A stretch of DNA of 42,124 nt from Gammaproteobacteria bacterium (lineage in GTDB: Bacteria > Pseudomonadota > Gammaproteobacteria > SURF-13), in assembly GCA_003599485.1 (NCBI GenBank), contig QZKM01000046.1, positions 1 through 42,124 on the forward strand, given 5' to 3'. Within the stretch, counting starts at the first letter, position 1, and each line of letters begins with the position of its first letter. Positions 29,990 to 30,240 of this stretch are shown here, piece by piece. Under the pieces are notes generated by a model that saw nothing but the letters and a program-made list of their open reading frames with translations, was not told where the DNA came from and did no database searches. The translations under genes and the position numbers were made by a program.

Positions 29990-30065
29990 TGGTGGAGCGG
30001 AGGAGGATCGAACTCCCGACCTTCGCATTGCGAACGCGACGCTCTCCCAGCTGAGCTACCGCCCC
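29990..30065 (-). tRNA. tRNA-Ala (anticodon CGC)
   Basis: Minus-strand cloverleaf: acceptor GGGGCGG/CCGCTCC (one G-U), D-arm TAGCTCAGCTGGGAGAGC, anticodon stem TCGCG/TGCGA with loop TTCGCAA (anticodon CGC, reads GCG), T-loop TTCGATC, and encoded CCA (29990-29992). A partial copy of its 5' end lies upstream at 30161-30186. Confidence 0.94.
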
Positions 30066-30240
30066 AAATCTAAACAGTTGTGTTGCCGTCCCTGGCGCAA
30101 CGGCAGAGTTTTTCTACACACCAGCCAGGCCATCCATGGCCTGTCGTTCGCCGCTTCGCGGCTCACCCCATCTGAGCTACCGCCCCAAATCTAAACAGTT
30201 GTGTTGCCGTCCCTGGCGTAACGGTATCAGAATGTGTGCA
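30066..30240 (-). repeat. Repeat with partial tRNA-Ala copy and hairpins
   Basis: Upstream of tRNA-Ala, the tRNA's acceptor strand and D-arm start recur at 30161-30186 (minus strand GGGGCGGTAGCTCAGATGGG, then GTGAGC). They pass into GCCGC-GAA-GCGGC (30150-30162) and the stem at 30124-30145 (GACAGGCCAT/ATGGCCTGGC). The segment just upstream of the real tRNA (from CCGTCCCTGGCG to AAATCT) is also repeated, with one change. The hairpin module matches that at tRNA-Arg. Confidence 0.8.

Follow-up and report, generated by a model that had tools for sequence, protein, structure and literature searches.

The tRNA-Ala(CGC) gene of the window (the whole stretch of DNA analysed, 42,124 nucleotides from a gammaproteobacterial genome) is preceded by a set of hairpins and, beyond these, by a second copy of its own beginning. 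This raises the question of how a repeat can lie inside a tRNA gene and leave it intact, and whether the arrangement is peculiar to this gene. A reading of the sequence alone (hereafter the sequence-only reading) had proposed a small mobile or recombining module that targets tRNA genes. That idea is partly supported: its main point is right, and several of its particulars require revision.

The tRNA-Ala and tRNA-Arg loci of the window

On the minus strand, the tRNA-Ala locus reads native leader, remnant of an older unit, copy of tRNA nt 1-20, module and complete tRNA-Ala (Table 1). This hairpin module with its duplicated tRNA-Ala 5′ end is confirmed as real and as one case of a family. The module scores 105.7 bits (E 9e-37, 30065-30170) with the R1 covariance model, in whose training set this copy stands. 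The direct repeat at the locus measures 58 nt, hairpin 3 and tail included. In the tRNA-Arg(CCT) array, the architecture of module plus 5′ copy occurs twice in tandem, and alignment and direct repeats indicate that the tRNA-Ala module is homologous to both modules of that array.

The stem CAGGCCAT/ATGGCCTG, described earlier as common to the two tRNAs, is present at both, namely at 30126-30133/30136-30143 and at 19577-19584/19587-19594, and its 8-mer has 10 occurrences in the window where 1.8 are expected, a count that no shuffle reaches. The likeness of the tRNA-Ala hairpins to those of the tRNA-Arg repeat was also correctly seen, but the D-loop AGATGGGG is not borrowed from tRNA-Arg, as had been thought: it combines tRNA-Ala's own half (..CTCAGATGGG) with the fixed left end of the module, GTGAGC. 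Likewise, the module does lie inside the D-arm, but the junction follows G18-G19 (GG|GTGAGC) and does not fall at TAGCTCAG, where entry had been placed. Folding of the tRNA-Ala transcript gives nothing beyond shuffles (z -1.1), but it does show that the upstream half is a possible competitor for the 3′ acceptor strand.

Table 1. Features of the two tRNA loci in the window, in window coordinates.
Feature	Position	Strand	Evidence or remark
Complete tRNA-Arg(CCT), architecture as at tRNA-Ala	19441..19515	-	ARAGORN
Proximal module of the tRNA-Arg array, 104 nt	19516..19619	-	
Copy of tRNA-Arg nt 1-19	19620..19638	-	Direct repeat D4
Distal module of the tRNA-Arg array, 121 nt	19639..19759	-	
Second copy of tRNA-Arg nt 1-19	19760..19778	-	Direct repeat D4
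Inverted module abutting the outer end of the tRNA-Arg array	19773..19870	+	Covariance model, 53.4 bits
Complete tRNA-Ala(CGC), the rebuilt functional gene	29990..30065	-	ARAGORN; Rfam tRNA, 61.2 bits
Module at tRNA-Ala, 101 nt, GTGAGC up to the last base ahead of tRNA nt 1	30066..30166	-	R1 covariance model, alignment
AT-rich module tail, new leader of the functional tRNA-Ala	30066..30083	-	
Hairpin 3 of the tRNA-Ala module, TGCCGTTGCGCCAGGGACGGCA	30084..30105	-	
Hairpin 2 of the tRNA-Ala module, GACAGGCC-ATGGAT-GGCCTGGC, including the shared stem	30124..30145	-	
Hairpin 1 of the tRNA-Ala module, GTGAGC-CGCGAAGCG-GCGAAC, foot with tandem G-A pairs	30146..30166	-	
Truncated start, upstream copy of tRNA-Ala nt 1-20, GGGGCGGTAGCTCAGATGGG, one mismatch	30167..30186	-	
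Remnant of the older outer unit (hairpin 3 and tail)	30187..30226	-	Direct repeat D3; model match 30186-30272
Native tRNA-Ala leader/promoter region	30227..30270	-	Homologue in G004: leader of the empty tRNA-Ala site

Other repeats occur in the window. A CRISPR-like 35-nt repeat spans 988-1493 (Rfam CRISPR-DR16 at 1460-1495), and a CRISPR-like 36-nt repeat, GTGCTCAACGCCTTTCGGCATCGGAGATGAAATCAC, has four copies in 1877-2134. The intergenic repeats at 16949-17034 and 33184-33270, 94-98% identical and with CCCGCGAAAGCGGG hairpins, represent a second, unrelated repeat family. Finally, the EAL/GGDEF-type reading frame adjoining the tRNA-Ala locus contains a 51-nt tandem duplication (29361-29462, 78% identical).

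A family of modules joined to gene beginnings

The modules share the conserved core GG|GTGAGC-hairpin1-GCGAAC-GCC-hairpin2-GGC-NGG, after which come a linker that varies, in most cases a third hairpin, and finally a tail rich in A and T. The repeats measure about 100 to 190 bp and have no gene inside. Hairpin sequences vary freely while pairing is kept, and the length of hairpin 1 is very variable. The covariance model was built on an alignment of 14 copies picked from the source genome (G000, 1.69 Mb), in which 97.6% of pair cells are standard pairs and 30 double changes are found; none of 500 shuffles reaches this covariation, and slid controls do not come near it either. Two of the covarying pairs belong to the foot of hairpin 1, beyond its GA/GA positions (GTGAGC/GCGAAC).

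By this model the source genome holds 34 copies, and 22 of 56 relatives have matches, other families of the class included, the weakest of these matches lying near the threshold and some (e.g., L088 and L090) not being modules. A scan of 84,980 species genomes for a D-arm joined to a module returned 42 stretches, nearly all from Gammaproteobacteria, with carriers that include Alcanivorax, Marinobacter, Marinimicrobium, Sedimenticola, Coxiellaceae, Lysobacterales and Woeseiaceae. The general form of the core given above was drawn from these stretches. Cultured carriers include Marinobacter mangrovi CHFG3-1-5, Alcanivorax sp. S71-1-4 and Marinimicrobium alkaliphilum SW121. The class-wide count with a second model, R2, is at least 22 of 369 genomes, which is a lower bound because R2 scores few candidates per genome. 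Most of these data are MAGs. At gathering level, Rfam finds only tRNA at the module loci, with no family match for the module; the family TwoAYGGAY was considered for the ANGGAY loops and gave no match. The open-access literature searched, with subscription journals and preprints outside the search, holds no description of the module, so that the earlier impression of an undescribed element stands within that scope. REP papers turned up in this search, as did a paper on partial tRNA genes derived from large elements, in which the module is not described. The family also has a REPIN/BIME-like form, seen in two nearly identical inverted two-module elements of the source genome (C2:53866-54045 and C16:15455-15634); similar composites of facing modules occur in G086.

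At tRNA genes, the order is native leader, tRNA nt 1-19, module and complete tRNA, and the 5′ copy belongs to the same tRNA (Ala, Arg, Thr, Ser, Met, His, Lys, Gly, Val, Phe, Trp and Pro). Wherever the contig suffices among the 42 stretches, a tRNA follows (Thr, Arg, Lys, His, Gly, Val, Asn or Met/Ile) whose nt 1-19 agree with the upstream copy at 18-19 of 19 positions; having been chosen by its D-arm pattern, this set is silent on how frequently modules lie at tRNAs. The tRNAs are intact in all complete loci, because a second copy of the gene's own beginning follows the module.

Most junctions fall at nt 18-19, with repeats of 18-21 nt. Further junctions are found at nt 18 (Ser), 25 (Ser), 30 (Trp), 31 (Ile), 38 (Pro) and 51 (Gly), each of them preceded by GG, a constancy that rests on the model matches because the junction search pattern itself required GG. 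At these further junctions the repeat begins at 0 to -2. At the nt 19 junctions the commonest starts are 0 to -4, with a minority at -7 to -13, and the tRNA-Thr repeat starts at -10. In arrays the repeat reaches further into the leader because the tail of the previous module is repeated as well. Since the insertion point ranges from nt 18 to 51 while the repeat starts near +1, a target-site duplication of fixed length is ruled out. In L200 of G024 (from about 1480), some seven near-identical modules stand in tandem at a single tRNA-Ile/Met gene; the outermost has its junction at the D-loop, whereas the inner ones have theirs at the GGG of the anticodon stem.

In the source genome, 10 of the 34 copies end no more than 3 nt from where a same-strand tRNA gene begins, while 0.005 would be expected, several of the ten being training sequences picked for tRNA nearness and the adjacency figure being partly selected. 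Both the total and the adjacency include matches outside the 14 training sequences; the other 24 of the 34 copies come from the same search and are too few to offset the adjacency. About half of the copies lie at tRNAs, some of the further tRNA-linked ones standing farther out in the same arrays. Sites away from tRNAs do not have the module equally often in this genome: tRNA sites make up a tiny part of it and are enriched by orders of magnitude. One copy with its own 5′ copy lies upstream of tRNA-Ile(CAT) (L047, contig C9 of G000, minus strand), a gene that is itself split by a group I intron at 1234-1475 (Rfam RF00028, 82.6 bits).

The orientation is sense at nearly all tRNAs. An antisense copy is found at a tRNA-Pro 3′ end (L045), and such antisense insertions recur at tRNA-Pro 3′ ends (L045, L076, L082 and L085), where the tRNA-Pro 3′ end is repeated; in L045 this repeat is TTGGTCGGGGTGAGAGG, which contains the module start GGGGTGAG. 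The remaining copies of the source genome are intergenic, often at gene 3′ ends, where GGTGA of the module supplies the stop codon; by our reading of the translations, the genes are flhA, pstB, moaD, guaB and a ribonucleotide reductase-like gene. None of the module matches listed for G086 and G357 is inserted in a tRNA gene. The module thus recurs inside tRNA genes, as had been suspected, but is not restricted to them, protein-gene starts and gene 3′ ends being occupied too.

Orthologous sites without the module, which the sequence-only reading had suggested looking for, are found in relatives. The congener G001 has no module at tRNA-Thr(TGT); its leader and first 19 nt are identical to the G000 sequence above the module at 124 of 139 positions, and the tRNA with its downstream sequence at 226 of 250. 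At tRNA-Ala(CGC), the site in G004 is empty and its leader is related to that of the window, and G001 has only a hairpin-3 remnant directly before the tRNA. Modules are also absent from tRNA-Arg(CCG) and tRNA-Arg(ACG) in G003, from tRNA-Met in G001 and G004, and from tRNA-His in G003 and G004. These empty sites indicate that the native leader stands above the truncated copy, and that the module and the second copy are the gain. The architecture, the own-tRNA 5′ copies, the GG junction, the start near +1 and the empty sites can all be read directly from the genomes.

Modules of different genomes are most alike at the same tRNA: for 27 of 73 modules, the closest counterpart in another genome shares the acceptor 7-mer (shuffles 3.5, maximum 16). 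Vertical inheritance could explain part of this clustering by tRNA. Modules at different tRNAs of one genome have a likeness of 0.68 against a background of 0.585, and therefore modules also spread or convert between addresses. At tRNA-Arg(ACG), the flank is identical between G000 and G001 over about 70 nt and the tails agree, while in G000 the hairpin-1/2 part is that of the neighbouring tRNA-Ser module; cores therefore seem to be exchanged between modules.

Some units are found away from the tRNA whose half they carry. At the start of a gspL-like gene (L049), a module followed by a tRNA-Phe half that ends in ATGG is inserted at ATGG|ATGACC. A second module with a Phe half lies inside a tRNA-Ile array of G016 (L215). 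At csp (L244), a HAD phosphatase gene (L229) and mtnC (L217), the order is truncated start, module, ribosome-binding site and complete gene. The truncated mtnC start of G357 lies in the mtnB-mtnC overlap, as does the intact start in four congeners that lack the module. The functional start, ATGATCAAAGCCATAGTGACTGATATCGAGGG, shares 28 of 33 bases (counted by eye) with G383, a member of another genus, and is closer to it than to its own native copy; mtnC units of the same kind occur in G384, of a third genus. Because of this resemblance to another genus, the functional start was probably imported with the module and not copied from the target on the spot. The tRNA-half units away from their tRNA and the foreign-looking mtnC start are plain in the sequences; the HAD gene agrees weakly with a foreign functional start, the empty congener G375 matching the truncated start at 28 of 37 positions and the functional start at 24 of 37. 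The earlier idea that the tRNA is rebuilt therefore holds, but duplication of the 5′ part from the target does not fit mtnC, where the second 5′ part looks imported.

Explanations for the insertions

The best explanation appears to be a family of short non-autonomous mobile units, each composed of a module and a gene 5′ part that serves as its address, and from the sequences compared we give it slightly better than an even chance. A unit would consist of the folded module followed by the 5′ part of a particular gene, with GG as its last bases. The gene 5′ part would act as the address, insertion taking place right after the same GG of that gene. The old truncated start would stay upstream, and the imported start together with the resident rest would form a complete gene downstream. 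tRNA genes would make preferred targets: their opening 19 nt are a short stretch that closes with the near-universal G18-G19 and hardly differs from species to species. The unit presumably moves as one piece, and a single-strand or site-specific recombinase may act on the folded module; an HUH-like or other fold-reading recombinase is the favoured candidate, given that a fold and a short constant foot are what define the site. When a module first picks up a new gene 5′ part, a GG further downstream would probably serve as the right end.

Among the observations that count against such units, some repeats extend 7 to 13 nt into the leader, or further in arrays, as a local duplication would give; the likeness of modules at different tRNAs of one genome, the weak agreement at the HAD gene and the lack of a plasmid or viral carrier in the searches count against them too. 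In local duplication, the main rival and rather unlikely, the module is joined to a GG of the gene, by a one-ended HUH-type or replicative event at its left end, and a template switch to the beginning of the gene then duplicates the 5′ part. The leader bases repeated at tRNA-Thr (from -10) and at a tRNA-Lys site (about 13 bases; L086 of G034), the inclusion of hairpin 3 and tail in the 58-nt repeat at the window's tRNA-Ala, and the kinship of modules at different tRNAs of one genome all agree with it. However, nothing would make a template switch end at +1, and most repeats outside arrays start at 0 to -4; nor does local duplication account for the foreign-looking functional start of mtnC or for Phe-half units away from tRNA-Phe.

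Movement of the module as a REP by a Y1 REP-associated transposase (RAYT), with its presence at tRNAs incidental, is improbable. Hairpin 1 (GTGAGC..GCGAAC) does resemble Pseudomonas REPs of the type GAGC..GCGA (PMC2817692), the inverted module pairs on C2 and C16 would fit, and Y1_Tnp genes are present in 11 of 13 genomes. However, a strong module match lies near only 1 of 20 Y1_Tnp loci (1.5 kb flanks), G016 has 12 modules and no Y1_Tnp match, and L107 has ordinary REPs of the GTAGGAGC type beside its RAYT. Furthermore, REP mobility as described does not predict rebuilt target genes.

Classical transposition into tRNA D-loops with a fixed target-site duplication of about 19-20 bp would suit the many junctions at nt 18-19 with their 18-21 nt repeats, but it is very improbable given that the repeat grows from 18 to 51 nt with the insertion point, always from the beginning of the gene, and that the copies at gene ends have no such duplication. 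Equally hard to credit is an immobile functional RNA kept as a regulatory or processing leader for tRNA expression: strongly conserved pairing amid changing sequence, the sense orientation at nearly all tRNAs, and a tail and hairpin 3 that G000 and G001 have kept at orthologous sites speak for it, but orthologous tRNAs are occupied patchily, with empty sites within the genus, copies at gene ends, antisense and inverted copies exist, and no Rfam family matches.

A reverse-transcription model, suggested by the start of the repeats at the RNase P site, was rejected: the source genome, 96% complete, has no RVT_1, and the start at +1 needs no reverse transcription because homology is limited to the tRNA. 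As to possible carriers, viral sequences gave 120 pattern matches, about the number expected by chance on a rough estimate and only one of them with a real folded core, and neither plasmids nor E. coli gave a match.

Should the account in terms of mobile units be correct, essential tRNA genes can be entered again and again by non-coding elements of about 100 bp that do no harm, since every unit supplies the missing half; the gene-restoring trick of phages and islands would thus be reduced to its minimum. Such units would colonise tRNA and protein genes without breaking them, import foreign gene starts, and offer a route for swapping gene 5′ ends between genera. They would also account for a widespread source of partial tRNA genes and odd tRNA leaders in Gammaproteobacteria, and would point to a recombinase that recognises a fold independent of its sequence and, beyond that, a GG alone. 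That gene-less folded cassettes, recombining at GG with a gene start as exchangeable address, form a new class of mobile DNA is a more tentative proposal, which we regard as somewhat doubtful.

Comparison with known systems

The module departs in at least one tested defining feature from REPs, from tRNA-using integrative elements and from elements with a fixed duplication. With REP, REPIN and BIME sequences and their RAYT (TnpA-REP), it shares the character of a short, non-autonomous, palindromic extragenic repeat of Gammaproteobacteria (PMC2817692, PMC8266576). Pseudomonas REPs have the same hairpin foot GAGC..GCGA, a fixed motif 5′ of the hairpin and inverted pairs, and the imperfect palindrome with a mismatched foot typical of REPs recurs in the GTGAGC/GCGAAC foot of the module with its tandem G-A and covarying outer pairs. 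Unlike REPs, the module does not flank a RAYT as two inverted copies and has no linked RAYT. The REP head GTAG or GTGG is also missing, the constant letters being GG|GTGAGC and the bases before GG coming from the target. Furthermore, the module has two or three hairpins with stems that differ freely even among the copies of one genome, lies inside genes with the gene's 5′ part repeated, and strongly prefers tRNAs.

Phages, ICEs and islands that use tRNA genes (PMC9897764) are likewise flanked by truncated and complete target copies, carry the missing gene part and restore the target, as is the case here. The module differs in that it spans about 100-190 bp without any gene, and hence without an integrase inside the unit, and in that it restores the 5′ part where integrative elements usually restore the 3′ part. 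In addition, one common module serves many target genes, and tandem arrays form. MITEs and insertion sequences with a fixed duplication have direct repeats of constant length, whereas those of the module range from 18 to 51 nt; single modules have no terminal inverted repeats, and some copies away from tRNAs are inverted pairs.

IS200/IS605-type and other HUH single-strand transposons resemble the module in their folded subterminal hairpins and in insertion 3′ to a short fixed sequence. The module differs from them in that its unit lacks a transposase, that GG is all its targets have in common, and that the target gene is rebuilt. Integron gene cassettes form arrays of units, each with a folded, sequence-variable site (attC), and the modules do the same. 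A new unit can lie at an existing junction, as in L215, which also recalls integron cassettes. The modules differ in that no attC consensus or integrase is recognised and in that their cargo is the beginning of a gene.
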